NCBI GenBank assembly: GCA_913030825.1
Contig: CAJWCU010000005.1
Coordinates: 124,001-188,000 of the forward strand
Origin: an uncultured Rhodospirillaceae bacterium
Lineage (GTDB): Bacteria > Pseudomonadota > Alphaproteobacteria > Rhodospirillales > Casp-alpha2
DNA: 64,000 nucleotides
Reading direction: 5' to 3'
Shown here piece after piece: positions 17,106 to 49,201 of the stretch (position 1 is the first letter of the stretch; each line of letters starts with the position of its first letter). Below the pieces are notes generated by a model, which saw only the letters and a list, made by a program, of their open reading frames with translations, was not told the DNA's origin and did no database searches. Position numbers and translations under genes: made by a program.

Positions 17106-20100
17106 ATGACACCTCCCGAACAGCAGAAAACCGCCGCCGGCTGGCACGTCTGGATCGACCGGGGCGGCACCTTCACGGACCTCGTGGGGCGCGCCCCGGA
17201 CGGGCAGCTGACGACGCACAAGCTGCTGTCGGAAAATTCGGAGCAATACGAAGACGCGGCCCTGCAGGGTATTCGCGACCTGATCGGCGTCAGCGCAGGC
17301 GAAACGATCCCCGAAGGTGCGGTCGAGGTCGTCAAGATGGGTACCACCGTCGCGACCAACGCCTTGCTGGAGCGTAAGGGCGACCGGACGGTTCTGGTCA
17401 TCACCGAAGGCTTCGGCGATGCGCTCCGCATCGGATATCAGGCGCGGCCCGATATCTTCGCGCGGCATATCGTCCTGCCGGAAATGCTTTATGAACGGGT
17501 CATCGAAACCGGCGAGCGATTAAACGCCCAGGGCGAGACGTTGACGCCGCTGGACGAGGGCCGCCTGCGGGCGGGCCTGCAAGACGCCTACGGCGCCGGC
17601 ATCCGCGCCGCCGCCGTCGTCTTCATGCACGGCTACCGCTATTCGGCGCACGAACGCCGGGCGGCCGAGATCGCCCGCGAAATCGGCTTCACCCAGGTCT
17701 CGACCAGCCACGAGGTCAGCCCCTTGATGAAACTGGTCAGCCGGGGCGACACCACGGTCGTCGACGCCTACCTGTCGCCGATCCTGCGGCGCTACGTCGA
17801 TCGGGTGGCGGCGGACCTGGGGGATACCCGCCTGCAATTCATGCAATCGAATGGCGGGTTGACCGACGCGCGATTGTTCCAGGGCAAGGATTCGATCCTG
17901 TCGGGCCCGGCAGGCGGCGTCGTCGGTATGGTCGAGACGGCCCGCATGGCGGGTTTCGACAAGATCATCGGTTTCGACATGGGCGGCACCTCGACCGACG
18001 TCTCCCATTACGACGGCGAGTACGAGCGCACCTTCGAGACCCAGGTCGCGGGCGTGCGCATGCGCGCCCCCATGATGAACATCCACACCGTCGCGGCGGG
18101 CGGAGGGTCGATCCTGCATTTCGACGGCGCGAGATATAGGGTGGGGCCGGACAGCGCCGGCGCCGATCCGGGCCCGGCCTGCTACCGCCGGGGCGGGCCG
18201 CTGACCGTCACCGACTGCAACGTCATGCTGGGCAAGGTGCAGCCGAAATACTTCCCCAATCTGTTCGGCCCCAAGGCGGACCAGCCGCTGGACGCCCTGG
18301 CCGTGCGCCGGGGCTTCGAAAAGATGGCGAAGACCATCCACGAGCAGACCGGCGACGACCGGACACCGGAAGAAGTCGCCGAGGGCTTCCTGCAGATCGC
18401 CGTTGAGAACATGGCCAACGCGATCAAGAAGATTTCCGTCCAACGCGGCCACGACGTGACCGGCTACGTACTGAATTGCTTCGGCGGAGCGGCGGGTCAG
18501 CATGCCTGCTTGGTCGCCGACGCGCTGGGCATGAACACGGCCTTCCTGCATCCCTTCGCGGGCGTGTTGTCGGCCTACGGCATGGGCCTGGCCGATGTGC
18601 GGGCGATCCGCGAAAAGGCGGTCGAAGCACCGCTTGCCGCCGGGCTGACCGCCCCCCTGATGGAAATGATCGAAGACCTGGAGAAAGATGCCCGGGCGGA
18701 GATCGAGGCCCAGGGCATTCCGTCGGATTTGATCGACGTCCAGCGCCACGCCCATCTTCGCTACAAAGGCACGGACACGGCCCTGATGGTCGCCTTCGGC
18801 GACCGCAGCAAGATGACCGAGGAATTCGAAGCCCTGCACCGCCAGCGCTATGGCTTCACCGCCCCCGGCCGGGGCCATGTGATCGAGGCGATCTCGGTCG
18901 AGGTCGTCGGCCGCGCGGGCCTGGCCGAGGACCCGGACATCGAGGACATTCCCGGCGTCGCGGCCCTGCGCCCCATGGATACGGTTCGCATGGTCTCGGG
19001 CGGCGAGCCTTATGAGACGCCCGTCTACAAGACCGAAGCCCTGTTGCCCGGCGACCGCCTGGTCGGTCCGGCGATCCTGGTCGAAAATACGTCCACCATT
19101 ATCGTCGAGGCCGGATGGGCCGCCGAGATGACCCGCAAGGGCCACCTGATCCTGACCCGCGCCGAGGCGCGGCCGGAAACCCACGCCATCGGCACGCAGG
19201 CCGATCCGGTGATGCTGGAGATTTTCAACAATCTGTTCATGTCGATCGCCGAACAGATGGGCACGACCCTGGCCAACACCAGCTATTCCGTGAACATCAA
19301 GGAACGCCTCGATTTCTCCTGCGCCGTGTTCGACCGGCATGGTGAGCTGATCGCCAACGCGCCGCACATCCCGGTCCACCTGGGCTCCATGGGTGAAAGC
19401 ATTCGCGCCGTCATGGACGGCAACAAGGGCAAAATGGAACCGGGCAACGTCTATGCCCTGAACGCGCCCTATAACGGCGGCACGCACCTGCCGGACGTCA
19501 CGGTCATTACCCCCGTGTTCGACGGGGCGGGCGAAGAGATTCTTTTCTACGTCGGCTCGCGCGGCCATCACGCCGATATCGGCGGCATCACCCCCGGCTC
19601 CATGCCGCCCAATTCGACGACGGTCGAGGAAGAAGGTGTGCTGATCGACAATTTCTTGTTGGTCGAACGGGGCGATTTGCGGGAAGAGGCGCTCCGCGAA
19701 CTTCTCTGCGGCGGGCCCTATCCTGTGCGGAACTTCGACCAGAACCTGGCCGACCTGGGGGCGCAAATCGCGGCCAACGAAAAGGGCGCCCAGGAACTGC
19801 GCAAGATGGTCGACCATTTCGGCCTGGATACGGTCTGGGCCTATATGGACCACGTCCAGGACAACGCCGAGGAAAGCCTGCGCCGGGTGCTGGACGTGCT
19901 GACCGACGGCCATTTCCGAAGCGAGATGGACAACGGCGCCGTGATCGACGTGAAGATCACGGTCGACCGGGAAAAGCGCGAGGCGACCCTGGATTTCTCC
20001 GGCTCTTCCGCGCAACTGGGCAGCAATTTCAACGCCCCCTCCGCCGTCTGCCATGCGGCGGTTCTTTATGTCTTCCGCACGCTGATCGACGACGACATTC

Positions 20101-20729
20101 CCTTGAACGCGGGCTGCCTGAAACCGTTGAATCTGATCATCCCCGAAGGCTCCATGCTGTCGCCCACTTACCCGGCCGCCGTGGTCGCGGGCAACGTGGA
20201 AACCAGCATGGCGATCACCGACGCGCTCTACGGTGCCTTGGGCGTTCTGGCGTCCAGCCAGGGAACCTGCAACAACTTCACCTTCGGCAACGACCGGCAT
20301 CAGTATTACGAGACGATCTGCGGCGGCTCCGGCGCGGGACCGGATTTCGACGGCACGGACGCCGTCCATTGCCATATGACGAATACCCGCCTGACCGATC
20401 CGGAAGTTTTGGAATGGCGGTTCCCGGTGATGCTCGACCGCTTCGAAATCCGCCGTGGCTCCGGCGGGCCGGGGGCTCATCATGGCGGCGCCGGGGTGAT
20501 CCGCCGGGTCAAGTTCCTGGAGGACATGACGGCGGCGATTCTGTCCAGCCACCGCCGCAACCCGCCGCAGGGCATCGACGGCGGTGGTGACGGCAAACTG
20601 GGCCGAAACGCCGTCGAATACGCCGACGGCCGCATCGAAGAACTGACCGGCACGGACCGCCGCGACCTGAAACCCGGCGATGTCTTCATCATCGAAACGC
20701 CGGGCGGCGGCGGCTTCGGCGCGGCCTGA
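17106..20729 (+). CDS. Fused hydantoinase A/B (5-oxoprolinase-type) protein
   Basis: 1207 aa; HyuA part ([37 protein letters not shown]) and HyuB part ([53 protein letters not shown]). Confidence 0.93.
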
Positions 20730-24609: not shown

Positions 24610-25629
24610 TTATTCGGCGGCAGCCCCCGCGCTTTGAACGACGACGCCGGCATGCTGGGTGACCATCACCTTGTTCAGCAATTTGACGCAGGAATAGACC
24701 GCGAAGGTATGCGGGCAATCCGTTTCCGTCAGCTTGGCCAATTCCAGAACCGCGCCGATCAGGGCCTCGGTTTCCAGCGACCGACCGGCTTCCACGTCCT
24801 GCAGCATCGACGTTTTGTGCGCGCCGACGCTTTCGGCGCCGTTGATGCGCTTCTCGATGGTATGGCGGAAGGTGATGCCGAGCTTTTCGGCAACGATCTG
24901 GGCTTCTTCCATCATCTTTTCGGCGAGTTTCCGGGTTTCCGGGAACTGGCAGATGTCGACCAGGGTCGCATGGGTCAGCGCGCTGATCGGATTGAAGCTG
25001 AGATTGCCCCAGGCCTTGAGCCAGATTTCCGAGCGAATATCGTCGAGCACGCGCGAACGGAAGCCCGCACCCTCGAGCAATTCTTTAAGTTTTTCAACAC
25101 GTTCGCTTTCCGATCCATCCAATTCGCCGATCGGGAAACGGTCGCCTTCAACATGGTGGATGACGCCCGGCTCGGTCACCGCCGCGGCCGGATAAACGAC
25201 GCAGCCGATGATCCGGTCGCCGTCGATGTACTTGGTCAGCACGCCGTCCGGATCCAGGCTTTCCAACTGCTTGCCGTCGTGCGGCCCGCCGTGGTTGTGG
25301 AAATACCACCAGGGAATGCCGTTCTGCACGGTCATGATCATGGTGTCGGGGCCCATCAAGGGCTCCATTTCCTTGGCCACGAGTTCCAGGTAATGGGCCT
25401 TGAGGCCGAGGATCACCAGGTCCTGTTCGCCCGCATCGGCGCATTTTTCGTAGGCCTTGACCTGGGCGACGTGCTCCGAGCCGTCTTCCCAAATCAGTTT
25501 CAGGCCGTTTTGACGGATGGCCTGCAGATGCGGCCCCTGGTCGATGACGCTGACCTCGTTTCCGGCCAGCGCCAGTTTGGCGCCCATCAGGCCGCCGATG
25601 GCGCCCGCGCCGATCACGCATACACGCAT
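24610..25629 (-). CDS. 2-dehydropantoate 2-reductase-like (ApbA/PanE family) oxidoreductase
   Basis: MRVCVIGAGAIGGLMGAKLALAGNEVSVIDQG; VQNGIPWWYFH; KAWGNLSFNPISALTHATLVDI. Confidence 0.87.
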   Translation of the reverse strand: MRVCVIGAGAIGGLMGAKLALAGNEVSVIDQGPHLQAIRQNGLKLIWEDGSEHVAQVKAYEKCADAGEQDLVILGLKAHYLELVAKEMEPLMGPDTMIMTVQNGIPWWYFHNHGGPHDGKQLESLDPDGVLTKYIDGDRIIGCVVYPAAAVTEPGVIHHVEGDRFPIGELDGSESERVEKLKELLEGAGFRSRVLDDIRSEIWLKAWGNLSFNPISALTHATLVDICQFPETRKLAEKMMEEAQIVAEKLGITFRHTIEKRINGAESVGAHKTSMLQDVEAGRSLETEALIGAVLELAKLTETDCPHTFAVYSCVKLLNKVMVTQHAGVVVQSAGAAAE

Positions 25630-25717: not shown

Positions 25718-26491
25718 CTAATTGTTAAACGTGTTGCGCAGCGTGCCGATCCCATCGATCACGATCTCGACGGTGTTGCTCGGCTCCTTCATGGTGCCGA
25801 CGCCGACGTTGGTGCCGCAGGCGATGACGTCGCCCGGCTCCAGCGTCACGTCGTGGGAAATCTCGCTGATCAGTTTGGCCGGTGTGCGCAGCATGTCGGA
25901 GACCGGATAATTCTGCCGCTCATCGCCGTTGAGGATCGTCTTGACGGTCAGCTTCATCGGGTCCAGGCCCGTGGCGATGACCGGGCCGAGCGGACCGAAG
26001 GTGTCGAAGCTTTTGGACCGGGTCCATTGATCGAAGGTGCCGTCGCGCTTGAGGATTTCCGCCGCCGTCACGTCGTTGACGCAGGTGTAGCCGAACACGT
26101 AATCCAAGGCCTCGGCCTCGCCGACGTTTTTGCAGCGCTTGCCGATGACGATGCCCAACTCACCTTCATAGACGACCTTGCCGTCGTAGCTGGCAGGCCG
26201 TTCGATGACGGTTTCCGTGGCGGTGATTGAGTTATTCGTCTTGATGAACCACAACGGCTCCTCCGGCCGTTCGCCGCCCATCTTTTCCCGCATGGTGTTG
26301 TAGTTGTTCCAAAGGGCGACCATCTTGCCGGGCTTGATCGGCGCCAGGACTGTAACGTCAGACAAATTGACGGTCTCACCGGTCGCCGTGGCGCCGGCAA
26401 TCATGTCGCCGGAATGCACGGTAATGGTTTCGCCGTCCAACGTGCCGAAGCCTTCCGCACCCTGGTTTTCGTACCTGATCCACAAAGTCAT
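25718..26491 (-). CDS. Fumarylacetoacetate hydrolase (FAH) family protein
   Basis: VVYEGELGIVIGKRCKNV, YVFGYTCVNDVTA, RSKSFDTFGPLGPVI, GDVIACGTNVGVG. Start at MTLWIRY. Confidence 0.9.
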   Translation of the reverse strand: MTLWIRYENQGAEGFGTLDGETITVHSGDMIAGATATGETVNLSDVTVLAPIKPGKMVALWNNYNTMREKMGGERPEEPLWFIKTNNSITATETVIERPASYDGKVVYEGELGIVIGKRCKNVGEAEALDYVFGYTCVNDVTAAEILKRDGTFDQWTRSKSFDTFGPLGPVIATGLDPMKLTVKTILNGDERQNYPVSDMLRTPAKLISEISHDVTLEPGDVIACGTNVGVGTMKEPSNTVEIVIDGIGTLRNTFNN

Positions 26492-26730
26492 TCTTCTGTT
26501 TCCCCACGATATCGTTGCGCCCGCACCGGCCGGCACTGACCTGAGCAGAATTGTATACATCCCAAACGGGGACAGACCTTAGCCATCGCCGTACGCCCCA
26601 TCAACAACAGGTGTTGACGCAGCGCAGCAATACCAGGGGGTTTTCCTGATCGTGGAATAACCGGCACATCCGGCGGCTGCACCGCCGGGCACAAAAGCCG
26701 AAGAAAGGCCCTGAAACCGAGTGCCGAAAC

Positions 26731-27585
26731 CTAGTGGTGGAAGAGAACCGGAATGTCCGCGTTTTCGACCACGTATTGGGTGACGCCGCCGATCTTGAAA
26801 TCATGACGGCGGGCATGGGCATACCCGCCCATCAGCAACAGATCGACCCCGTTGTCCGCACATGCTTTCAACAGCGCCTGCCCGATTTCATGGGGGTTGC
26901 ATTTCAGGACGACCGTCTCGCTTTCCTGACCGTGCCAACGCAGATAGTCCGCCAGGTCCGACGCTGGCAGGTCGTCGCCATGAACTTCCGGCGCCGACAG
27001 GATGATGACCTTGTCCGCCGTCTCGACGATGGGGCGGGAGGTCGTGACCGCGGCCGAAACCTCAGGCGAGCCGTTCCAGGCGATGGCGATGGTCTTGCCG
27101 ATGTCGGAGATATCCTTGGGCGGCACGCTGACCACGGGTTTTCCCGTTTCCATCAACGCCGCCTCGAAGGTATTGACACCCAATTGGCCGTCGGGCCGGG
27201 CGACGAAGATGACGTCGGTCAGCCGCCCGCGCCGCGAGACGACGGCGGCCTGACGACCCTTTTCCTCGCGCCAGGAGGCACTGACGCCGGTCATGCCGCT
27301 GCGCGGCTCGGCGATGTTCGCCACGCCTATCTTGTCGCAATATTCTTCGTAGAGCTTTTTGACCCTGGCCTCTTCCTCGGCCGCGTGGGTTTCGGCGATA
27401 TCGTTGACGACGTCACGCACCCCGGCCAGCGTGGCGCCGTAGGCCAGCATGTCTTTCGAGCCCATTCGGGCATGGACGACGTCGATATGGGCATCGAACT
27501 TCTTGGCCAAAGCGACGGCGGCGTTCAGAACCTGTTCGCCCTTTCCGTCACCTCGTACCGGCACCAGGATATTGCGTATGGTCAT
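26731..27585 (-). CDS. Universal stress protein (UspA family), 284 aa
   Basis: MTIRNILVPVRGDGKGEQVLNAAVALAKKFDAHIDVVHA; C-terminal LLLMGGYAHARRHDFKIGGVTQYVVENADIPVLFHH. Confidence 0.9.
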   Translation of the reverse strand: MTIRNILVPVRGDGKGEQVLNAAVALAKKFDAHIDVVHARMGSKDMLAYGATLAGVRDVVNDIAETHAAEEEARVKKLYEEYCDKIGVANIAEPRSGMTGVSASWREEKGRQAAVVSRRGRLTDVIFVARPDGQLGVNTFEAALMETGKPVVSVPPKDISDIGKTIAIAWNGSPEVSAAVTTSRPIVETADKVIILSAPEVHGDDLPASDLADYLRWHGQESETVVLKCNPHEIGQALLKACADNGVDLLLMGGYAHARRHDFKIGGVTQYVVENADIPVLFHH

Positions 27586-27663: not shown

Positions 27664-29340
27664 TTAGAACAGGCCCTCGATCTGACCTTGTTCGTTCAGG
27701 TAGATGTTATTGGCCGACGGAACCTTGGGCAGGCCCGGCATCGTCATGATCTCACCGGTCAGGGCGACGATGAATTCCGCCCCGGCCGACAACCGCACCT
27801 CGCGCAGGGCGACGCTATGGCCGGTCGGCGCGTTTTTCAGGTTCGGATCGGTCGAGAAGGAATACTGCGTCTTGGCCATGCAAACCGGGAAGTTGCCGAA
27901 CCCGGCGGCTTCCCAATCCTTGAGCTGATTGCGGATTTTGCTGTCGGCCGTAACTTCCTCCGCCCGGTAGATTTCCTTGGCGATCGTTTCGATCTTCTGG
28001 AACAGCGGCATCTCGTCGGGATAGAGCGGCTTGAAATCGGCCTGACCGGAATCGGCCAATTCGACCACATGCTCCGCCAACGCAGCCGTACCGGCACTGC
28101 CGTCGGCCCAATGGGTCGCGATGAAGGCCTTCACGCCCTGGGATTCGGCAGCTTCCTTGACGGTCTGCAGTTCGGCGTCCGTATCGGTGATGAAGTTGTT
28201 GATCGAGACCGTCACCGGCACGCCGAACTTCTTCATGTTCTCGATATGGCGCAAAAGGTTGGCGCAACCTTTCTTGACCGCCTCGACATTTTCCGTGCCC
28301 AGTTCGTCCTTGGCCACGCCGCCGTGCATCTTGAGCGCGCGAACCGTGGCGACGATAACCGCCGCCGCTGGCTTCAGGCCGGCCTTGCGGCACTTGATGT
28401 CGAAGAACTTCTCAGCCCCCAGGTCGGCGCCGAAGCCGGCTTCGGTGACCACATAGTCGGCCAACTTCAATGCCGACTTGGTCGCGATGACCGAGTTACA
28501 GCCGTGCGCGATGTTGGCGAACGGGCCGCCGTGGATGAAGGCCGGGTTGTTTTCCAACGTCTGCACCAAGTTGGGCGCGATCGCTTCCTTGAGCAGCACG
28601 GACATCGGGCCCGGGCCCTTGACGTCGCGGGCGTAGATCGATTCCCGCTGGCGGTTCTGGCCGATGATCATTTTGCCGATCCGCTCGGTCAGGTCCTTCA
28701 GGTTGTTGGACAGGCAGAAGATCGCCATGATCTCCGACGCCACGACGATGTCGAAGCCGTCTTCGCGGGGGAAGCCGTTGGCGACGCCGCCCAGCGAGTT
28801 GGTGATCTGACGCAACGCGCGATCGTTCATGTCGACGACACGCTTGAAGGCGACACGGCGGTTATCGATGGCCGGCTCATGCCCCCAATAAATGTGGTTG
28901 TCGATCAGGGCCGCCAGCAGGTTATGGGCAATGCCGATGGCGTGGAAATCACCGGTGAAGTGAAGGTTGATATCTTCCATGGGCACGACCTGGGCATATC
29001 CGCCGCCGGCCGCCCCGCCCTTCATGCCGAAACAAGGCCCCAGCGAAGGTTCGCGGATACAGATCATCGCCTTCTTGCCGATTTTGTTCAGACCGTCGCC
29101 CAAACCGACGGTCGTCGTGGTCTTGCCCTCGCCGGCCGGCGTCGGTGTAACGGCGGTGACCAGGATCAGCTTACCGTCGGGATTGCCCTCCAACGACTGC
29201 AGGTATTCCATGTCCACCTTGGCCTTGTGCGGGCCGTACTGCAGAAGTGCGTCGGCGGGAATACCCAACTTCTCCGTGCCGACCTCGGCGATCGGCTTCA
29301 TCGTGGCTTCGCGGGCGATTTCGATATCACTTTTCGGCAT
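27664..29340 (-). CDS. fhs: Formate--tetrahydrofolate ligase
   Basis: [80 protein letters not shown]. Confidence 0.97.
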
Positions 29341-29429: not shown

Positions 29430-30353
29430 CTAGGCGCCCAGAACCTTCCCTGTCTTAAGGCCGGTTTTGGCCACGTAGTCCGCAGCAGTGATCTTCTTGT
29501 CGTCGTGGGGGCGCAGGCGCATGACCTTGACGGCCCCGCCCGTCGCGGCGACCAGGATATGATCGTCCTCGATCGCCATGACCTCGCCCGGCTTGCCGCC
29601 GGTGTCACCATCGACCCGGCGCGCGTCGAAGATGGCCAACTCATTTCCGTCGATGGTCGTCCAGGCGCCCGGCTGCGGGTTGCAGCCACGGATCTGGTTG
29701 TAGACCTCGGCGACGGGCTTGGACCAATCGATCTCCATGTCCTTCTTGCGGCACCAGGATTCGTAGGTCGCTTCGTCTTCGTTCTGCGGAATCTTCGGCG
29801 GATTGCCTGCCTTCACCATGTCGATGGCTTCCAGCATCATTTCGACGCCGCGGTCGAAGATCTTGCCGAAATAGATATCGCCCAGGGTATCGTCCGGGCC
29901 GATGGCGACCTTGTCCTGATGCAGGATGAAGCCTTCGTCCAGGCCGTCGTCCGGCCAGAAGATGGTGATCCCCGTTTCCGTCGCCCCACCGATGATCGGC
30001 CAGTTGATCGACGACGGCCCCCGGTGCTTGGGCAACAACGAGGGGTGGAAACAGATCGACCCGTGGGTCGGAATGTCGCGCGCTTCTTCCGGAACGAAGA
30101 TGATCATATAGGCCATGACCATCAGGTCCGCGTTCAGCGACCGCATATGGTCGAGGACTTCCTTGTCCGTGTAGTTGGGCGGCTGGAACAGGGGCAGGCC
30201 CTTTTCGACGGCGAATTCCTTCACCGGGTCGACGGGCTTGCCTTCCTTGTCCGGCGCGCAGAACACACCGACGATTTCGTCCTCGCCCTTTTCCAGGATC
30301 TTTTCCAACGTGGCCTTGCCGAAGGCCTGCTGGCCGTTAAGGATCAAACGCAT
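29430..30353 (-). CDS. Formyltransferase/10-formyl-THF hydrolase-like protein (resembles N-terminal domain of 10-formyl-THF dehydrogenase)
   Basis: [24 protein letters not shown] ... [17 protein letters not shown] ... [19 protein letters not shown] ... [11 protein letters not shown]; closer to the ALDH1L1 hydrolase domain pattern than to Fmt (Asn of Fmt N-x-H replaced). Confidence 0.82.
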
Positions 30354-30420: not shown

Positions 30421-31668
30421 TCAGACCGCGCCCACGTCCTTCGCCGCCGCGATCTCGTCTTCGTTCATGCCGAGAATTTCGGACAGGATTTCATCCGTGT
30501 GTTCGCCCAGAAGCGGCGAACGCGCAACGTCGGCCGGGCAATCGGACAGTTTGATCGGGCAGCCGACCGTCAGGTAGGCACCGCGTTCCGGATGATCGAC
30601 CTCGACGATGGTGCCGGTCTCGCGCAGGCTCGGCTCCTCGGCCAATTCCTTCATGCTGAGGATCGGGCCGACGGGGATGTTGAGCGGGTTGCAGATTTCC
30701 ATGACCTCGAACTTGGTCTTGGTCGTCGTCCAATCCTCGATCGCGCCGAACATCTCGTTCAATTTCGGCAGGCGCGCTTCCGGGGTCGCCCATTCGGGAT
30801 CTTCCTTCCACTCGGGCTTGCCGATGACGTCGCAGATGTTCTTCCACACCGCCGCCTGGGTGATGAAGTAGGTATAGGCGTCGGGATCGTTCTCCCAGCC
30901 CTTGCACTTCAGGATGCGGCCCGGCTGACCGCCGCCGGAATCGTTGCCCGCGCGCGGCGTCGCCTCGCCGAAGGGAATGCCTTCGGAGAACTGAGAATAT
31001 TCCTTGAGCGGGCCGGCCTTCAGGCGCTGCTGATCGCGCAGTTTGACGCGGCAGAGGTTCAGAACCGAATCCTGCATCGCGCATTCGACGCGCTGCCCCT
31101 TGCCCGAATGGGTCCGTTGATAAAGCGCCGTGACGATGCCCAGCGCCAGATGCAGGCCCGTGCCGCTGTCACCGATCTGGGCACCCGTGACCATGGGCGT
31201 TTCGCCCAGCATGCCGGTCGTCGAGGCCGAACCGCCGGCGCATTGCGCGACGTTCTCGTAAACCTTACAGTCCGAATAGGGTCCGGGGCCGAAGCCCTTG
31301 ACCGAGGCATAGATCATGCGCGGGTTGATTTCCTGGATCTTCTCCCAGGAAAAGCCCATGCGGTCGAGCGCACCCGGCGCGAAGTTTTCGACCATGACGT
31401 CGCATTCTTCGATCATGCGGGTGAAGATCGCCTTGCCCTCGTCGGATTTGGTGTTCAGCGTCACCGACCGCTTGTTGTGGTTCAGCATGGTGAAATAGAG
31501 CGAATCGGCACCCGGCACGTCGACCAGTTGTTTGCGCGTGGCGTCACCGACGCCGGGGCGCTCCACCTTGATCACGTCGGCCCCGAACCAGGCCAGCAAT
31601 TGGGTGCAGGTCGGACCCGACTGCACGTGGGTCATGTCCAGGATTTTGACGCCTTCGAGAGCTTTCAT
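30421..31668 (-). CDS. frc: Formyl-CoA:oxalate CoA-transferase (CAIB/BAIF class III)
   Basis: [75 protein letters not shown]; adjacent to oxc. Confidence 0.95.
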
Positions 31669-31708: not shown

Positions 31709-33451
31709 TTACTTCTTGGCGACGACGCTTTGCGGATTGAGGTTGCCGATCCGGCCGCTTTCCGTGCCGGCTTTTTCGTCGATGACCGCGTTGACCAGGG
31801 TCGGCTTGCCCGACTTGAGGGCTTCGGTCACGGCGTGCAGAAGTTCGTCCGGCGAGGTGGCGTTGACGCCGACGCCGCCGAAGGCTTCCATCATCGTGTC
31901 GTAACGCGCGTCCTTGACGAACACGGTCGGCGCCACATCCGCGCCACCCGTCGGGTTGACGTCGGTGCCGCGGTAAATACCGCCGTTGTTGAACACGACG
32001 ACACAGACCGGCAGGTCGTAGCGGCAGATCGTTTCAATCTCCATGCCCGAGAAGCCGAAGGCCGAGTCGCCTTCGATGCAGAGAACCGGATGGCCCGTTT
32101 CCACGGCGGCGCCGATGGCCTGGCCCATGCCGATGCCCATGACGCCCCAGGTGCCGACGTCCAGGCGCTTGCGCGGCTTGAACATGTCGATGATCGAGCG
32201 GGCGAAATCCAACGTGTTGGCGCCTTCGTTCACCAGGATCATTTCCGGGTTGTCGGCGACGACCTTTTTCAGGGCGCCCAAGGCACCGTGATAATCCATC
32301 GGCACGTTGTTGTTCTGCAGACGCGGGGCCATTTTCTCGACGTTGGCATCGCGCTTAGCCTTGACCGCGTCGGTCCAGGCGGCCGGCGGGGCCTTCCAAT
32401 CGCCGCCCATGCCGTCGAGCAGCGCCTTCACGCAGGAGGCGATGTCGCCGACCAGCGGCGCCGCGATCTCGACGTTGGAATCCATTTCCTTGGGCTCGAT
32501 ATCGATATGGACGAACTTCTTCGGCGCCGTGCCCCATTGCTTGCCCTTGCCGTGGCTGAGCAGCCAGTTGAGACGGGCGCCGATCATCAGGACCGCGTCC
32601 GATTCCTTCAGCACCAGGGAGCGTGCGGCACCGGCGTATTGGTCGTGGGTGTCCGGCAGCAGGCCCTTGGCCATGCTCATGGCGATGTAGGGGATGCCCG
32701 ATTTCTCGACCAGTTCCTTGATGGCGTCGTCGGCCTGGGCGTAGGCAGCGCCCTTGCCCAGAATGATCAGCGGCTTTTCCGCCGACTTCAAAACGTCGAG
32801 CGCGCGGGCGACGGCGTCCGGGGCGGGCAGCTGCGCCGGGGCCGGGTCGATGACCTTGACCAGGGACGCGGCACCGGCGGCGGCCTCCATCGTCTGACCC
32901 AGAAGGGCCGCTGGAATGTCCAGGTAGACCCCGCCCGGGCGGCCCGAAACGGCCGCGCGGATGGCGCGGGCGACGGCGATGCCGATGTCTTCGGCGTGCA
33001 GCACGCGGTAGGCGGCCTTACACAGCGGCTTGGCGACGGCGAGCTGATCCATTTCCTCGTAGTCGCCCTGCATCAGGTCGACGATTTCCCGTTCGGACGA
33101 CCCGGACATCAGGATCATCGGGTAGCAGTTGGTCGTGGCATGGGCCAGGGCCGTCAGGCCGTTGAGGAAGCCCGGCGCCGACACGGTCAGGCAAACGCCC
33201 GGTTTCTTGGTGAGGTAGCCTGCGATGGCGGCGGCGTAACCGGCGTGCTGCTCATGGCGGAACGACAACACCCGCATGCCTTCGGCCTGCATCATGCGGC
33301 CCAGGTCGGTGATCGGAATCCCCGGCACGTTGTAGATGGTGTTGATGTCGTTGAGTTTCAGCGCATCGATGATCAGGTGAAAGCCGTCGGTCAGGTCCAC
33401 CGCTTCCGCGTCGTTGGTTTCCTGGCCCATGTTGGCCGCCGTTTCGCCCAT
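31709..33451 (-). CDS. oxc: Oxalyl-CoA decarboxylase
   Basis: ThDP enzyme: [86 protein letters not shown]. Confidence 0.96.
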
Positions 33452-33531: not shown

Positions 33532-34260
33532 TCAGTCCAGATAGTCCACGTATTTTTCGACATGCCGGGCCAGGTTCATGGAATGCTCCCGGACCAGACG
33601 TTCAGCAAGTTCGGCGTCCCGGTTTTCGAGCGCCTCGATGATATGCATGTGGTCGATCACCGACCGCCGCGCCCGGTCGGCCTCGCCGATGGTGCGGGCC
33701 CGGATCGAGCGCATGTGAATGAAGAGGTTGTCGGCCATTTCCTGGATCAACTGGCAGCCGCCGAGCCGCAGGATCGCCTGATGGAACCGAATGTTCTTCG
33801 ACGAATACTCGTCGATATGGGCCTTGGCTTCCTCGCTCTCGACCTCGGCGAACAGCGTGCGCAGACCTGCGATCTCCTCGTCGGAGGCGACTTCCGTTGC
33901 GAGCCGTGCCGCCATGCTTTCCAGCGCCGCCCAGACGGTGATCATTTCCATGATCTCGCGCTTGGTCTTGCGGACGATAAACACGCCCTTGCGCGGCACG
34001 ATGTGGACCAGGCCTTCCTGCTCCAAACGGGCAAGCGCCTCGCGGATCGGGGTGCGGCTGATTTCCAACTGTTCGGAGAGCTTGCGTTCGTCGAGGCGCA
34101 GTTCCGCGTCCTCGGCGTAGATGTTCATGGAGGTGATCGCCTGTTTCAAGGAATCGTAGATGCGGTCCTTGAGTGAAAAATTGGCGTCGATCGGCTGCAC
34201 GACCAGACCGGACGAGCCGGCGGCGTCGGTTTCAGCGATGGTTTCGGCTTCTCTTTCCAT
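33532..34260 (-). CDS. GntR-family transcriptional regulator, FadR/FCD subfamily
   Basis: [42 protein letters not shown] wHTH plus helical C-terminal domain. Start at MEREAET. Confidence 0.9.
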
Positions 34261-34427
34261 GACCCTGCTTTCAAGTCGTCCCGGCCCGAGACATCCGTAT
34301 TCCGGAGTTTGTCTCTGCCGGGATGCCCCCGTTGATCCCCCCGTGTTGATCTCTATGCCGGCGTCGTTGCGGGCCGCTTTCCGCCGATGGTCGGCGGCAT
34401 GGCTCGTGGGTATAGCTTCTTTCTCCG

Positions 34428-34437
34428 TGGTATACAA
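34428..34437. promoter_or_regulatory. GTATAC-centred palindromic operator-like site (TGGTATACAA) upstream of gntR
   Basis: Shares core with sites at 37975, 26551, 14776, 58043. Confidence 0.45.
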
Positions 34438-34548
34438 TACACCAGAACCCACAAAACCGGCATTTCAGACCGTCCGTCGAACCTCCTTCGCCGCCTTGCG
34501 CCGCCGGGCCGATCGCACCGGCCCTCGGCGGCATGGCGACCTGTCACG

Positions 34549-36069
34549 TCATCCCGCGGCCTGCTTGGTGCTGCGGACATATTTGCGCCAGACGAATTGG
34601 ATCGCCGGCAAGAACAGAAGCACCAGGGCGATGATGGTGATCGGGCCGGCGATCGGCCGGTTGACGAACACCATGGCATCGCCGCCGGAAATCAACAGGG
34701 ACTGGCGCAGCGCCGGTTCCGCGATGGGGCCGAGCACGATCGCCAACACCGCCGGGGCCACCGGATAGTCCAGTTTACGCATCAAATAGCCGCCGACGCC
34801 CAGGATCAGCATCAGCCAGACGTCGAACATCCGTTCGGTCGAGGCATATCCGCCGACCATCGACAGCACGAAGATCAGCGGCGCCAGAATGGTGAACGGC
34901 GTGCGCAGGAACCACAGGAACAGTGGAATGAACGCGATGTTGATGATCACCGCGAAAAGGTTCGCCGCGTAAAGCGAAGCGATCAGACCCCAGACGAAAT
35001 CGGTTTCCGTGACGAACAGCCGCGGCCCCGGCTGCAGCCCCCAGATGACCATACCGCCCAGCAACACGGCCGTGGTCGGCGAGCCGGGAATGCCCAGCGT
35101 CAGCATCGGCAGCATGGAGCCGGTGGAGGCCGCGTTGTTGGCGGCTTCCGGCGCGACGACGCCCTCGACCGCGCCCTTGCCGAACCGCGATGGGTCCTTG
35201 GCCGTCATCTTGGCGACGCCGTAAGCCATCAACGAGCCCGGCGTGGCCCCCGCCGCCGGCAGAATGCCGACGAAGAAGCCCAAACCCGATCCCATCAGCC
35301 AGGCCTTCCAGGTGCCCCAAATGATCTTCAGATTGGACATCGTGCGGTCCCAGGTGATCGTCGCCTTGGACATCATGGTCTCGCCGCGGCTGACCTCGAT
35401 GGTCCACATCATCTCACCGATGCCGTAGATCCCGATGGCCAGAACCAGGAAGTTGATCTTGGACTGGAAGCCGATCAGATCGAACAGGACCAGGCGCGGT
35501 TCGCCCGAAATAATGTCAAAGCCGATCGCCGACATGACCATACCGATACAGATCGAAAAGATCGTCTTGGCGATATCGTCGCCGGACAGGCCGACGAAGG
35601 TCGCGAAAGCCAGGATCATCAGCGCGAAGATTTCCGGATCGCCGAAATCCAGGGCGACCGAGGCCAAGGGCGGCGCGAACAGGGTGAACAGGATGACCGA
35701 GATCGTCCCGCCGGCGAAGGACGCCAGGGCGGCGGCGATCAACGCCTTGTCGGCCTCGCCCTGCATGGCCAGCGGCCGCCCGTCGAAGGTCGTCGCGACC
35801 GCCGTCGAGGCGCCGGGAATACCCAGCATGATCGACGAAATCGCCCCGCCGTACATGGCCCCGTAATAAAGGGCGGCCAGGAACATGATGGCCGAGGCCG
35901 GCGGCACCAGGAAGGTCATGGGCAGCAGGATCGCCACCCCGTTGACGGAGCCCAGGCCGGGCATGGCGCCGACGAACAGGCCGACGACGACCCCCAGCAC
36001 GATCAGACCGAGGTTGAGCGGTTCGAACGCGACCAGAAACCCATCTGATAAAAGACCGAGAAGTTCCAT
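34549..36069 (-). CDS. Tripartite tricarboxylate transporter large membrane subunit TctA
   Basis: VGLFVGAMPGLGSVNGVAILLPMTF, MLGIPGASTAVATTFDGRPLAMQGEA: TctA signatures. Confidence 0.95.
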   Translation of the reverse strand: MELLGLLSDGFLVAFEPLNLGLIVLGVVVGLFVGAMPGLGSVNGVAILLPMTFLVPPASAIMFLAALYYGAMYGGAISSIMLGIPGASTAVATTFDGRPLAMQGEADKALIAAALASFAGGTISVILFTLFAPPLASVALDFGDPEIFALMILAFATFVGLSGDDIAKTIFSICIGMVMSAIGFDIISGEPRLVLFDLIGFQSKINFLVLAIGIYGIGEMMWTIEVSRGETMMSKATITWDRTMSNLKIIWGTWKAWLMGSGLGFFVGILPAAGATPGSLMAYGVAKMTAKDPSRFGKGAVEGVVAPEAANNAASTGSMLPMLTLGIPGSPTTAVLLGGMVIWGLQPGPRLFVTETDFVWGLIASLYAANLFAVIINIAFIPLFLWFLRTPFTILAPLIFVLSMVGGYASTERMFDVWLMLILGVGGYLMRKLDYPVAPAVLAIVLGPIAEPALRQSLLISGGDAMVFVNRPIAGPITIIALVLLFLPAIQFVWRKYVRSTKQAAG

Positions 36070-36207: not shown

Positions 36208-36705
36208 CTAAAGGAAGATGTCGTAAAGCGGGATGTAGAGGGGGTCCATCAACCCCGTCGGCAGGAATTTGCGCAAGGCGATGTCGAAGAACAGGAAGGT
36301 GACGACCGGCGTCGGCACGGCGATACCCAAGGTCACCTTCCAGGAATGCCCGCCGAGAAAGCGGATGTAATAAATCAGGAAGACCGCCGCCGCGAGATGC
36401 ATGCCGATGATTTCGACCAAGCCGATCATGCCGGTCACCCCGCCGCCGACCAGGATGAACATCTTCATGGCGTAGGAGTCGAGGTAGGGCTCTTCCGATT
36501 GAGACGGCGGGCTGGAGCGGCGGAACCAGTTGATCGCGACCCAAATCGTGGAGCCGAACATGCAGGCCGCCAGCCAGAAGGGCCAGAACCCGCCTCCGGG
36601 CCCTTCGCCTGGGATCCAGCCGATCGGCAACTCCATGCTCTTGAACATGAGGTAAAGAGAGAGGCCCGCCATCAGGGCAGCAGTGATGATTTCAGCACGA
36701 CGCAT
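36208..36705 (-). CDS. Tripartite tricarboxylate transporter small membrane subunit TctB
   Basis: 165 aa, 4-TM pattern; position between tctC and tctA. Confidence 0.85.
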   Translation of the reverse strand: MRRAEIITAALMAGLSLYLMFKSMELPIGWIPGEGPGGGFWPFWLAACMFGSTIWVAINWFRRSSPPSQSEEPYLDSYAMKMFILVGGGVTGMIGLVEIIGMHLAAAVFLIYYIRFLGGHSWKVTLGIAVPTPVVTFLFFDIALRKFLPTGLMDPLYIPLYDIFL

Positions 36706-36764: not shown

Positions 36765-37754
36765 TTAGCCTTTGATCGCGCCCATCTTGATCAGCATCTT
36801 GCGATGCACTTCGTTCTCACGCTTCCAATAGGCCATCAGCGCGTCGCCCTGAAGAAGCTCGCCCTGCAGGCTCTTCTTCTTCATGTAGGTCTGCCATTCC
36901 GGCGTATCGTAGACCTTTTTGAACACGCCCTGATAGAAAGCCTGAGCGTCGGCGCTCATGCCGGGCGCACCGACGACGGAGCGCTGCATGTAATAGACGA
37001 AGTCCTTACCCAGTTCCTTGAACGTCGGCGCATCCTTGAACAGCGGCAAACGTTCGTCCGTGAAGGCCGCCAGCGCCACCGTCTTGCCGGCTTCGTAGAA
37101 GCCGAGCTGTTCGGACGGGTTGTTGACGGTCGAATTGGCGTGGTTGCCGGCCAACTGCTTGGCCACCTTGCCGCCGCCCTTGTAGGGGACGTACTTCATG
37201 TTCAAGCCATAGGCCGCGTTCAGGAAGTCGGTCAGCAGGTTGTCTTCGGACGCCTTGCCGGTGCCGGCCATGATCCACTTGTTGCCGGCGGCCTTGGCGG
37301 CGGCGACGAACTCGTCGACGTTCTTGATGCCGGAATCCTTATTAACCCACAGCAGGAAGGTGTCTTCGGCCATCCGCGCGATCGGCGCGAAGGTCAACGG
37401 ATCGACACCCAGACGCGGCTGGCGCATCGGCGTGGTGTAGAAGGAATTCAGGGTGACCATGATGGCATGGTCGGCGTCCTTGTGGTTCTTCATGTAAACC
37501 AGCGCCTCGGCGCCGGAACCGCCGGGCTTGTTGATCGGCGTCACCGGCTTCGACGACAGCTTGTGCTTTTCGATGATCGACTGAATCAGCCGGGCAAGCT
37601 TATCGGCGCCCCCGCCTTTGCCCGCCATCACGACGAATTGGATCGGCTTTACCGGCTCCCACGCCAGGGCAGTCTTGCCCGTCACGGCCGTGAACCCGGT
37701 CACCAGGCCGGCGGCGATGCCGACGCCCAGCAGTTTTCTGAAGATAGTCTTCAT
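36765..37754 (-). CDS. Tripartite tricarboxylate transporter substrate-binding protein TctC/Bug family
   Basis: Signal peptide; PIQFVVMAGKGGGADKLARLIQSI, VTPINKPGGSGAEALVYMKNHK. Confidence 0.9.
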   Translation of the reverse strand: MKTIFRKLLGVGIAAGLVTGFTAVTGKTALAWEPVKPIQFVVMAGKGGGADKLARLIQSIIEKHKLSSKPVTPINKPGGSGAEALVYMKNHKDADHAIMVTLNSFYTTPMRQPRLGVDPLTFAPIARMAEDTFLLWVNKDSGIKNVDEFVAAAKAAGNKWIMAGTGKASEDNLLTDFLNAAYGLNMKYVPYKGGGKVAKQLAGNHANSTVNNPSEQLGFYEAGKTVALAAFTDERLPLFKDAPTFKELGKDFVYYMQRSVVGAPGMSADAQAFYQGVFKKVYDTPEWQTYMKKKSLQGELLQGDALMAYWKRENEVHRKMLIKMGAIKG

Positions 37755-40229: not shown

Positions 40230-41033
40230 TCATGTCTGCAACACCGACGAGACCAGCAACTGCGTATAGGCGTGTTGCGGGTCGTCCAACACCTGATCGG
40301 TCAGGCCCTGTTCCACCACCTCGCCCCGGCGCATGACCATCAGGCGGTGCGACAACAGGCGCGCCACGGCCAGATCGTGGGTCACGATCACCGCCGACAG
40401 GCCCAGATCGTTGGTCAGGCCGCGCAATAAGTCGAGCAGCCGCGCCTGAACCGATACGTCGAGACCGCCGGTCGGCTCGTCCATGAAGACCAGACGCGGG
40501 CCCGAAACCAGATTGCGGGCGATCTGCACCCGCTGCTGCATGCCGCCGGAAAACTGCGTCGGCAGATCGTCGATGCGGCCCAGGTCCATTTCCACCCGGC
40601 CGAGCCAGTCGGTCACCTGCTCGCGGATCGCGCCATAGTGCCGCGCCCCCACGGCCATCAGGCGTTCGCCCACGTTGGCCCCGGCGCTGACACCCATGCG
40701 CAGGCCGTCGCGCGGGTTTTGATGAACGAAGCCCCAGTCCGTGCGCATCAGCATCCGGCGTTCGGCCTCGCCCATGGCGTAGACGTCCGCCGTCTCGCCG
40801 GTGCGCAGGAGGTAATTCAGCGCCCCCGCCGCCGGAATGAACCGCGCCGACAGGCAATTGAGCAGCGTCGTCTTGCCCGATCCGCTTTCGCCGACAACGC
40901 CCAGCACTTCGCCGGGCCAGAGGTCCAGCGTCACGTCGCGGCAGCCGATACGGTCACCATAGGAATGGGAAATGCCGGTCGCGGTCAGCAGCGGGCCGTC
41001 GTCGCGGGCCTCCTGAGCGGACATGGTGGTCAT
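40230..41033 (-). CDS. phnK: C-P lyase ABC-type ATPase PhnK
   Basis: VVGESGSGKTTLLNCLS, FVHQNPRDGLRMGVSAGANVGERLMAVGARHYG, FSGGMQQRVQIARNL. Confidence 0.95.
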   Translation of the reverse strand: MTTMSAQEARDDGPLLTATGISHSYGDRIGCRDVTLDLWPGEVLGVVGESGSGKTTLLNCLSARFIPAAGALNYLLRTGETADVYAMGEAERRMLMRTDWGFVHQNPRDGLRMGVSAGANVGERLMAVGARHYGAIREQVTDWLGRVEMDLGRIDDLPTQFSGGMQQRVQIARNLVSGPRLVFMDEPTGGLDVSVQARLLDLLRGLTNDLGLSAVIVTHDLAVARLLSHRLMVMRRGEVVEQGLTDQVLDDPQHAYTQLLVSSVLQT

Positions 41034-41917
41034 GTGCTCTCCTCCGGCCCGCCCGGCCCCTTGTGACCGGCGACGACCCGGCGCCCGCAATGGTCAGTAT
41101 CGGAACAGATGTACATGGAGCCGCCCTGATCGTCGGTGATGACTTCGTCCAGGAAGCTTTCACCGTCGCCGCAGATGGCGCAGACGGCGCCCCAGGTCTG
41201 GACCTGAAACGGATGGTCCTCGAAATCCAGGCTTTCGACCCGGGTGTAGGGCGGGATGGCGTAGATGCGTTTTTCGCGACCGGCGCCGAACAACTGCAGC
41301 GCCCCCATCTCGTGCATTTTCGGGTTGTCGAACTTGGGGATCGGCGACGGCGACATCAGATAGCGGCCGTTGATCAGCACCGGGTAGTCGTAGGACGTCT
41401 CGATATGGCCGTACTTGGCGATATCCTCGTAAAGCTTCACATGCATGACGCCATAATCGGCGAGGCCGTGCATCTTGCGAGTTTCGGTCTCCCGCGCCTC
41501 CAGCCAACGCAGCGGCTCCGGGATCGGTACCTGATAGACGATGATCTGATCGTCCCGCAGATTCATTTCGGGGATGCGGTGACGGGTCTGAATGACCGTG
41601 GCGTCTTCCGTCTTTTCGGTCGTCGCGATGCCTGCCGTGCGGGCGAAGAAACGGCGGATGGAAACAGCATTGGTGGTGTCGTCCGCCCCCTGGTCGATCA
41701 CCTTCAGCACGTCCGCAAGACCGATGATCGAGGCCGTGACCTGAATCCCGCCGGTGCCCCAGCCGTAGGGCAGCGGCATCTCGCGCGAACCGAAGGGCAC
41801 CTGATGACCCGGGATGGCGACCGCCTTCAGGATCGCGCGGCGAACCATCCGCTTCGTCTGTTCATCCAGATAGGCGAAGTTGTAGCCGCTGTCTTGCGCG
41901 GTCGCGGGGGCGGTCAT
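41030..41917 (-). CDS. phnJ: Alpha-D-ribose 1-methylphosphonate 5-phosphate C-P lyase PhnJ
   Basis: YNFAYLDEQTKRMVRRAILKAVAIPGHQVPFGSREMPLPYGWGTGGIQVTAS; C-terminal Cys cluster CAICGDGESFLDE...CSDTDHCGRR. Confidence 0.97.
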   Translation of the reverse strand: MTAPATAQDSGYNFAYLDEQTKRMVRRAILKAVAIPGHQVPFGSREMPLPYGWGTGGIQVTASIIGLADVLKVIDQGADDTTNAVSIRRFFARTAGIATTEKTEDATVIQTRHRIPEMNLRDDQIIVYQVPIPEPLRWLEARETETRKMHGLADYGVMHVKLYEDIAKYGHIETSYDYPVLINGRYLMSPSPIPKFDNPKMHEMGALQLFGAGREKRIYAIPPYTRVESLDFEDHPFQVQTWGAVCAICGDGESFLDEVITDDQGGSMYICSDTDHCGRRVVAGHKGPGGPEEST

Positions 41918-43035
41918 TCGGCGGCCTCCCGGCGGCGGGCCTCGGCCTCTTCGCGCAGGGCGCGGACCAGGACCAGTTCGCTTTGGAAATCCACGTAATG
42001 GGGCAACTTCAGATGTTGGACGAAGCCCTGGGCCTCGACGTTGTCGGAATGATAGAGCACGAATTCCTCGTCCTGAGCCGGGGCGACGATATCCTCGCCC
42101 AATTCGCGGGCGCGCAGGCTCCGGTCGACCAGGGCCATGGACATGGACTTACGCTCGGACCGGCCGAAGACCAGGCCGTAGCCCCGCGTGAATTGCGGCG
42201 GTTCGGTCGCCGATCCGGCGAACTGGTTGATCATCTGGCATTCGGTGACGGTGATGTCGCCGATCTCGATGGCAAAGCCCAGTTCCTCGGGCACGATCTC
42301 CACGGCGACCTCGCCCATGCGGATTTCCCCGGCGAAGGGATGCGTCCGGCCATAGCCGCGCTGGGTCGAATATCCCAATGCCAACAGAAAGCCTTCATCG
42401 GCACGGGCCAGATTCTGCAGGCGCAAATCCCGCCCCGCCGGAAAGCCGAGAGGTTCGCGGGTCAGGTCGGCGGCCGGGGTATCGGTGGCTGTCGCGGCTT
42501 CCGACCCGGTTTCCCGTTCGACCAGGCCCTCGCGGCCCAGCAGGTCCGTCACCCGAGGCATCGGCCCGGCCATCGCCGCCCCGTCGCCCTCGGCCGTATT
42601 CTGCGCGCTCTCTTTCCCCTCCGTCCTGTCTTCGGCCAAAGCGAAATCAAGCAATCGATGCGTATAGTCGAAGGTCGGTCCGAGCACCTGACCGCCCGGC
42701 AAATCCTTGAAGGTCGCCGAGATCCGGCGGCGGATCGTCATCGCGGCCGTATCGACGGGCGTGCTGACGGCGAAACGCGGCAGAGTCGTGCGGTAAGCCC
42801 GCAGCAGAAACACCGCCTCGACCAGATCGCCCATGGCCTGCTTGATCGCCAATGCGCCCAGGTCGGGATCGTAAAGCGAGCCCTCGCCCATCACCCGATC
42901 GACGGCCAGACCCATCTGGCTCTTGATCTGGGCCAGGGATAACTCCGGCACGTCGGTGTCGCCGCGCCTCTCCTCGGCCAGCAACGCATGGGCGTTGTCG
43001 ATGGCCTTTTCCCCGCCCTTGACCGCAACGTACAT
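41914..43035 (-). CDS. phnI: C-P lyase core subunit PhnI
   Basis: MYVAVKGGEKAIDNAHALLAEERRGD... ARADEGFLLALGYSTQRGYGRTHPFAGEIRMGEV. Confidence 0.96.
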   Translation of the reverse strand: MYVAVKGGEKAIDNAHALLAEERRGDTDVPELSLAQIKSQMGLAVDRVMGEGSLYDPDLGALAIKQAMGDLVEAVFLLRAYRTTLPRFAVSTPVDTAAMTIRRRISATFKDLPGGQVLGPTFDYTHRLLDFALAEDRTEGKESAQNTAEGDGAAMAGPMPRVTDLLGREGLVERETGSEAATATDTPAADLTREPLGFPAGRDLRLQNLARADEGFLLALGYSTQRGYGRTHPFAGEIRMGEVAVEIVPEELGFAIEIGDITVTECQMINQFAGSATEPPQFTRGYGLVFGRSERKSMSMALVDRSLRARELGEDIVAPAQDEEFVLYHSDNVEAQGFVQHLKLPHYVDFQSELVLVRALREEAEARRREAAE

Positions 43036-43036
43036 C

Positions 43037-43672
43037 CTAAAGGGCCTCCACCTTGGTCGTGCGCGGCAAAGCCGCCACCCGCGCCCCGGCACAAAGGATC
43101 AGATCGACGCCCCGGGGAAAGCGCTGGAAGTTCACGGCCAATTCCTCGGCCATTCCGGCACGCAGACCTTCGACCGCCAAATCGGCGTTTCCGTCGATTC
43201 CGGGACCGGATAACCGCCAGACGCCCTCGCCTGCCCGGCTTTCGAGGCCCGCGACCTGAACGATCAGCGTCGCCGACCGTTCCGGCAGTTCATCGGTGCC
43301 GGGCGAAAACGAATCGAGCCTGGGGATCATGGCGCCGTCCGCGATGACCGCGAAATCGGCTTCGTCCGGTGCATCGGCCAGCGGCGCCCCGGTATGGAAC
43401 CGCAGGTAGGCCTCCGCCCCATCGCCGCCGCCGTCGATCCAGAGACGCGTGTCGAGGTCGAGCAATGCCAGGCAGACCGCCGCCGCCGCGGGCTCCAACG
43501 GATGCGGCGGCGCGAAGTCCGGACCCAACGCCATGGTCAAATCCTGGATTTCTCCGGGATGGGACATGGCGCGTAGGACCGCACGAAAAACTGTCTGGGC
43601 ATCGTGGACCGGATCTTTAAGCCCGGGGGCCAGATCGGCACCGGGTGCTGTGGCGTATCGTGCTGTCGTCAT
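43037..43672 (-). CDS. phnH: C-P lyase core subunit PhnH
   Basis: DPVHDAQTVFRAVLRAMSHPGEIQDL; FPRGVDLILCAGARVAALPRTTKV. Confidence 0.94.
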   Translation of the reverse strand: MTTARYATAPGADLAPGLKDPVHDAQTVFRAVLRAMSHPGEIQDLTMALGPDFAPPHPLEPAAAAVCLALLDLDTRLWIDGGGDGAEAYLRFHTGAPLADAPDEADFAVIADGAMIPRLDSFSPGTDELPERSATLIVQVAGLESRAGEGVWRLSGPGIDGNADLAVEGLRAGMAEELAVNFQRFPRGVDLILCAGARVAALPRTTKVEAL

Positions 43673-48117: not shown

Positions 48118-49125
48118 CTAGTTGATGGCCAGCTGGTTGTCGCTGAGGACCTTGAGGACCTCGAGCTTGCGCTCGATATCAGCGATCTTCTTGGCTTTCT
48201 CGTCTTTGTCCAGGCGATCGTCGTTGACCAGCTTGGTCTTATCCTTGAACAGCTGCAGCTGACGGATCGGATAAAGCTGGGCGTTCGAGGATTCCTCGAA
48301 CGGCGCCCAACCGGAGCTGACGCCGGCCAGGATCTTCTTTTCCTTCTCAGCGTTCGGGCCCAGGCGGCCATAGGACAGGAAGAAGCCCTTGAGGACGCTC
48401 TTGGTGCCCTTGTCCAGATCGGCCCGCCAGACGATGGGATCGTTCGGGATCAGCGGCGACTTCCAGATCGCCTTCAGCTTGGCGCCGGCTTCCGGATGGT
48501 TCTTCTGCAGACGCGACAGGGATTCCGTGTTGTTGGTCGCGAAATCGACCTGGCCGTTGGCGACGGACAGCGCGTTGGTTTCGTGGTTGGCGTTGCGCAC
48601 GGACTTGTAGCACTTCTTCGGGTCCACATCGTTCTTGGCGAAGACGTAGAAGCTGGGAACCAGGAAGCCCGAGGTCGAGTTCGGATCGCCGTTGCCGAAG
48701 GTCAGGGACTGGTCGCACTTGAGAACGTCTTCCAGCTTGTTCAGCTTGTCGTTCGAGGCGTTGACCAGCAGCAGCGACCAGTAACCGGGGTTGCCGGTGA
48801 CGTCGACGGTCTGCACGAAGACTTCGCCGCCGGCGCGATCGACGGCTTCCATGGCCGACTTGTTGCCGAACCAGGCGACGTCGACTTTTTTGAAGCGCAT
48901 GGCTTCGATGACACCGGCATAGTCGGAGGCGAAGAACGCCTTCACCTTGACGCCGAGGGCTTTGCTCATGTCTTCGAGGAAAGGCGTGAAGCTTTTCTTC
49001 AGGCCCTGGGACGATTCCGTGGAGATGATGCCGAAGGTCAGCGGGTTCGGCATTTCTGCCTTTGCCGTCTGAACCGTGGCGAAGGCCGCCAGCGCGATGC
49101 CGGCGATCATGGCCTTTTTGAACAT
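48118..49125 (-). CDS. phnD: Phosphonate ABC transporter substrate-binding protein PhnD
   Basis: Signal peptide; LTFGIISTESSQGLKKSFTPFLEDMSKALGVKVKAFFASDYAGVIEAMRFKKVDVAWFG. Confidence 0.95.
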   Translation of the reverse strand: MFKKAMIAGIALAAFATVQTAKAEMPNPLTFGIISTESSQGLKKSFTPFLEDMSKALGVKVKAFFASDYAGVIEAMRFKKVDVAWFGNKSAMEAVDRAGGEVFVQTVDVTGNPGYWSLLLVNASNDKLNKLEDVLKCDQSLTFGNGDPNSTSGFLVPSFYVFAKNDVDPKKCYKSVRNANHETNALSVANGQVDFATNNTESLSRLQKNHPEAGAKLKAIWKSPLIPNDPIVWRADLDKGTKSVLKGFFLSYGRLGPNAEKEKKILAGVSSGWAPFEESSNAQLYPIRQLQLFKDKTKLVNDDRLDKDEKAKKIADIERKLEVLKVLSDNQLAIN

Positions 49126-49201
49126 TTTGACTTCCTCCTGAGTTGTCGAGTTCGGTGGGACAGTGGTGGGGCAAACAGTGGGCGCGCAGCGGCTCTGCCG
49201 G

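Follow-up and report, generated by a model that had tools for sequence, protein, structure and literature searches.

The gene examined here encodes a stand-alone formyltransferase (FT) and lies in a 64,000-nucleotide stretch of DNA, hereafter the window. It belongs to an operon with the order oxc-frc-FT-fhs, carried on one strand together with transporter genes (Table 1). The tripartite (Tct) transporter of this operon probably takes up oxalate. ORF calls and family profiles reproduced the coordinates and strand that the first-pass annotation had assigned to FT, and its place between frc and fhs.

Table 1. Features of the window operon (window coordinates) and loci with a 2-hydroxyacyl-CoA lyase (HACL)-like gene in the oxc slot.
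Feature	Position	Strand	Size or basis
FT, stand-alone formyltransferase, candidate formyl-CoA:THF formyltransferase	29430-30353	minus	307 aa
FT codons 99-112 (with catalytic His103 and Ser105, and Cys101 where Fmt has Asn)	30018-30059	minus	alignment
FT codons 135-139, DDGLD, catalytic Asp139 (= Asp142 of FDH)	29937-29951	minus	80/80 relatives
FT codons 7-13, GQQAFGK, family-specific motif	30315-30335	minus	Lys13 in 74/77
frc, formyl-CoA:oxalate CoA-transferase	30421-31668	minus	TIGR03253, 694 bits, cut-off 504
oxc, oxalyl-CoA decarboxylase	31709-33451	minus	TIGR03254, 991 bits, cut-off 739
fhs, formate-THF ligase	27664-29340	minus	NF010030, 911 bits, cut-off 652
Universal stress protein (USP) family gene	26731-27585	minus	adjoins fhs in many relatives too
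GntR/FCD-family regulator, operon head	33532-34452 (start codon uncertain)	minus	family match and neighbourhood
TctA-family subunit, tripartite transporter	34549-36069	minus	family match and neighbourhood
TctB-like subunit	36208-36705	minus	position and conserved neighbourhood
TctC-like binding protein	36765-37754	minus	family match and neighbourhood
HACL-like ThDP loci	L039:6007-7731; L043, L051, L056, L059, L060, L067, L068, L070, L114-L118, L125		

Only in the home genus is the operon followed by a PanE/ApbA-family gene (24610-25629) and an FAA-hydrolase-family gene (25718-26560). By analogy with Methylobacterium PanE2, the PanE-family product could be an oxalyl-CoA reductase. A role as reductase for the whole pathway was rejected, because the gene is confined to the home genus and is unrelated to the ketopantoate-reductase-like gene on pLA6_002. 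Elsewhere the window contains the C-P lyase genes phnJ and phnI with a phosphonate-binding protein (41030-43092 and 48118-49233), and a fused hydantoinase A/B (5-oxoprolinase-like) protein of 1207 aa (17106-20729).

FT has both Pfam domains of the formyltransferase superfamily above their gathering scores, Formyl_trans_N with 99 bits (cut-off 26.1) and Formyl_trans_C with 83.5 bits (cut-off 21.1), and it possesses the catalytic histidine and aspartate. The first-pass annotation had placed it nearer to the hydrolase domain of 10-formyl-THF dehydrogenase (FDH) than to Fmt, and a PDB search agrees. The top matches are all FDH hydrolase domains (E 3e-60), followed by Fmt (1e-45), ArnA and HypX. 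FT is 41% identical to FDH, 30% to the Fmt of its own genome and 20-24% to HypX. Scores fall below the curated cut-offs for Fmt (TIGR00460, 175.9 bits against 201.5, as do the scores of its relatives), PurU (TIGR00655, 22.7 bits against 285.95), ArnA and PurN. In genome searches the FT family is 40-100% identical to the window protein and Fmt about 28-35%. A phylogenetic tree separates FT well from FDH and HypX. The Fmt of the same genome fell inside the FT tree on an extreme branch, a long-branch artefact that was disregarded.

An alignment of 80 FT proteins was used to examine the active site. His103, Ser105 and Asp139 are invariant and correspond to the FDH triad His106-Ser108-Asp142 (PMC6802093). 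The FDH hydrolase domain (ALDH1L1; PDB 4qpd, 1s3i) resembles FT in its two-domain formyltransferase fold, judged by sequence at 39-41% identity, in the His-Ser-Asp triad, and in the motifs HPSLLP.HRG and DDGLD. In contrast, FT has no fused carrier or aldehyde dehydrogenase domain, is found in oxalate operons, and possesses a motif of its own, GQQAFGK. This loop is a possible CoA phosphate site; an AlphaFold model of the single FT sequence had a pLDDT of 47, too low to read a CoA site. The earlier observation that cysteine replaces the asparagine of the Fmt N-x-H motif holds for the window copy, which reads SICFHPS. It does not extend to the family, in which the position is cysteine in 44/80 proteins and glutamine in 36/80, never asparagine and never the isoleucine of the FDH hydrolase. 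An INWxxP-like motif mentioned in the same annotation was a misreading, as the actual letters are IDWSKP.

Automatic annotation names the pLA6_002 copy of FT 'fmt_2', which would make FT a second methionyl-tRNA formyltransferase. The two proteins do have both Pfam domains in common. However, the genome already has its own def-fmt pair apart from FT, the N-x-H asparagine is absent from FT, and FT is found in a different genomic context. Furthermore, compared with the Fmt of the same genome, FT has a counterpart of the tRNA-binding loop that lacks five residues and is acidic, with a mean net charge of -0.7 vs +2. A role in tRNA formylation is thus extremely unlikely. The genome encodes five Formyl_trans_N proteins, including PurN (next to PurM), the Fmt of def-fmt, and two short formyltransferase-like proteins located elsewhere; none of the five was recognised as PurU. 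The short proteins (236 aa, L136:1192-1902; 207 aa, L137:1315-1938) have an N-x-HPGPP motif.

The distribution of FT was compared with that of frc and fhs in an order sample (249 genomes) and a class sample (289 further genomes), and a phylum sample was searched besides. Of the 249 genomes, 58 have FT and 56 have oxalate frc. Both occur in 54, FT only in 4, frc only in 2 and neither in 189 (phi 0.93, p 3e-47). When the home family is set aside, the corresponding counts in the order sample are 19, 4, 2 and 187, and in the class sample they are 17, 3, 7 and 262. The sampled genomes share ancestry, so that the p-values assume more independence than there is; the better argument is that the FT-frc link recurs in different families and classes. 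FT without frc was observed in G017, G034, G318, G527 and G534, some of which, like other sampled genomes, are drafts with contig ends. The association of FT with fhs is weaker (phi 0.57 in the order sample) even though fhs is present in 53/58 FT genomes. FT tracks frc even from a separate location, as in L076 and L080, where it lies between rlmN-like and argG-like genes (named from sequence). The first-pass idea would have failed had the family occurred mostly away from oxc and frc. The opposite was found: the co-occurrence of FT with frc is nearly perfect, and it holds beyond the home family as well. FT is almost always found in oxalate-degrading bacteria, mostly within the oxalate genes themselves. 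It is encoded within the Frc/Oxc pathway and co-inherited with it, as expected of a member of the oxalate-degradation gene set.

Most FT loci have the order (Tct)-GntR-oxc-frc-FT-fhs-USP, and most FT copies adjoin frc. The phylum sample contained three FT matches besides that of the window, and 3/3 lie beside oxc-frc. The other matches in that sample have 32-35% identity and, where the motif is readable, the N-x-H of Fmt. The most distant FT (L159) is 43% identical, belongs to another class and has the locus order oxc-frc-frc-FT, in which the frc stop and the FT start overlap by one base (TAATG). Its genome, a single contig of 1.71 Mb with a listed completeness of 100%, gave no fhs match when searched with Fhs. 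Two FT genomes of 1.4 Mb do contain fhs, at another place. The two tandem frc-like genes that precede FT in L159 (6796-9450) differ, being 61% and 75% identical to window frc, and one of them may be a second CoA-transferase supplying oxalyl-CoA.

Could FT be a 10-formyl-THF hydrolase, an FDH-like enzyme lacking the carrier, that releases formate and THF and balances the folate pools during growth on oxalate? The first-pass annotation had offered as its second option such a release of formate, with Fhs running in reverse. FDH hydrolase is the nearest characterised relative, and the genome seems to be without PurU. On the other hand, a hydrolase beside fhs would create a futile cycle. It would also leave unexplained the closer tie to frc than to fhs and the operon of the fhs-less genome, and the FDH isoleucine is replaced in FT by cysteine or glutamine. 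This option is weaker, and we consider hydrolysis distinctly unlikely. Both hydrolysis and tRNA formylation fit worse than an exchange of formyl between formyl-CoA and THF.

The source of formyl-CoA varies among the FT loci. In 15 loci examined, a ThDP enzyme occupies the oxc slot; it is about 574 aa long and shares about 24% identity with Oxc (Table 1). It is nearest to AcHACL, a 2-hydroxyacyl-CoA lyase that releases formyl-CoA. The HACL-like enzyme was found in 14/249 genomes; frc and FT are present in 14/14, and oxc in only one of them. When the two ThDP enzymes are mapped on the FT tree, 8 switches are counted, at least 7 of which are forced by supported branches. One switch between oxc and the HACL-like gene lies inside the home genus (L039), where frc is 90% identical. 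In the alignment the equivalent of AcHACL Glu493 is absent from the HACL-like enzyme, which has histidine, glycine or alanine instead. The co-occurrence with frc and FT and the repeated switches, one of them within the home genus, suggest that the HACL-like enzyme is likely an alternative, second kind of oxalyl-CoA decarboxylase. Formyl-CoA is the product of the established chemistry of both the Oxc and HACL families, and by analogy both enzymes are expected to make it here. Formyl-CoA is therefore likely the constant across FT loci, and FT is regularly paired with Frc plus a source of formyl-CoA, rather than with Fhs.

Formyl exchange between folate and CoA is known from the N-terminal domain of HypX/HoxX (PDB 6j1g). 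Transfer of formyl from 10-formyl-THF to CoA was first proposed from the structure (PMC6802093) and is described as shown in a review citing the Lenz group (PMC12134894). Two HypX proteins, from two rhizobial plasmids, were used for comparison. They have the conserved histidine and aspartate. Unlike FT, HypX has isoleucine at the asparagine position, a replaced triad serine, and a fused, enoyl-CoA-hydratase-like decarbonylase by which formyl-CoA is retained, and its role is in hydrogenase maturation.

The steady partnership with a formyl-CoA source and Frc, taken with the reported HypX reaction, points to FT as a free enzyme that would catalyze formyl-CoA + THF <-> 10-formyl-THF + CoA. On balance we consider it somewhat probable that FT acts in the oxalate pathway as a stand-alone 10-formyl-THF:CoA formyltransferase, with the main flux from formyl-CoA to folate. 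This role was the first suggestion of the first-pass annotation. It best fits the replacement of oxc by a lyase-like gene and the fhs-less genome, and the activity itself is a prediction. From the gene, its family, its conserved residues, its operon and its co-occurrence, we infer the substrates, direction and mechanism as follows. Frc and Oxc would convert oxalate to oxalyl-CoA and then formyl-CoA, and FT would bind formyl-CoA and THF. Asp139, kept in place by His103 and Ser105, would remove the N10 proton of THF, and N10 would attack the thioester to give 10-formyl-THF and CoA. The step should be reversible in principle. Net flux from formyl-CoA to folate would bring oxalate carbon into C1 metabolism without free formate and without the ATP used by Fhs.

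The net direction deserves separate consideration, because FT could instead make formyl-CoA from 10-formyl-THF and CoA. Together with Fhs, which uses formate and ATP, it would then activate formate by way of folate, and so prime Frc or refill CoA thioester lost from the Frc/Oxc cycle. HypX works in this direction (PMC12134894), fhs adjoins FT in many loci, and the problem of thioester balance would be solved. That problem is a point against flux into folate. The Frc/Oxc cycle must recover a CoA thioester at every turn and is broken when formyl-CoA is withdrawn, with no dedicated oxalyl-CoA ligase in evidence. Moreover, fhs is present in 53/58 of the FT genomes of the order sample, and for most of them FT is dispensable as a source of formyl-THF. 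Three points favor the forward direction. FT is kept with oxc-frc in the complete genome that has no fhs match, where the only feed for the reverse reaction would be formyl-THF derived from FolD. Conversion of a thioester to a formamide is the downhill direction. Finally, pLA6_002 (L112, CP031587) joins the oxalate operon to serine-cycle genes and folD. We therefore regard the reverse net direction as unlikely.

The genes joined to the operon on pLA6_002 are glyA, hprA, folD, methylene-THF reductase, ppc and an NAD-type formate dehydrogenase. A gene annotated there as 'soluble hydrogenase 42 kDa subunit' is read here as serine-glyoxylate-aminotransferase-like. The island is possibly a movable oxalate-to-serine module. 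In many of the loci L040-L042, L045, L057, L079-L084, L116 and L117, a divergent succinyl-CoA-synthetase-like pair adjoins the oxalate operon; it is a candidate for a serine-cycle malate-CoA ligase or an oxalate/formate ligase.

The acceptor might also be something other than folate, for example a small amine, a protein or a carrier needed in oxalate use. The fold family has many acceptors, and sequence alone does not reveal the acceptor site. Yet it is formyl-CoA enzymes and fhs that recur beside FT, with no recurrent carrier-protein or biosynthetic gene, which makes such an acceptor very unlikely.

The published schemes of the Frc/Oxc pathway consulted here lead from formyl-CoA to formate and formate dehydrogenase, and contain no enzyme that passes formyl-CoA to folate (PMC12927642, PMC9476978). 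A literature search, in which subscription journals were little covered, found no free formyl-CoA:THF transferase described for oxalate metabolism. The fold is known, and so is the type of reaction, as the HypX domain performs this chemistry in reverse; a stand-alone enzyme in oxalate metabolism appears to be new. The fuller proposal is that a free formyl-CoA:THF N10-formyltransferase brings oxalate carbon directly into folate metabolism, replaces Fhs in some small genomes, and partners either Oxc or the HACL-like second oxalyl-CoA decarboxylase. We hold it tentatively, with slightly more doubt than belief. If true, FT would join oxalate to one-carbon metabolism by a link so far missing, and would account for how bacteria without formate-THF ligase could use oxalate carbon. 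The common mis-annotation fmt_2 would be corrected, and synthetic C1 pathways that make formyl-CoA would gain a one-step, ATP-free route to 10-formyl-THF.
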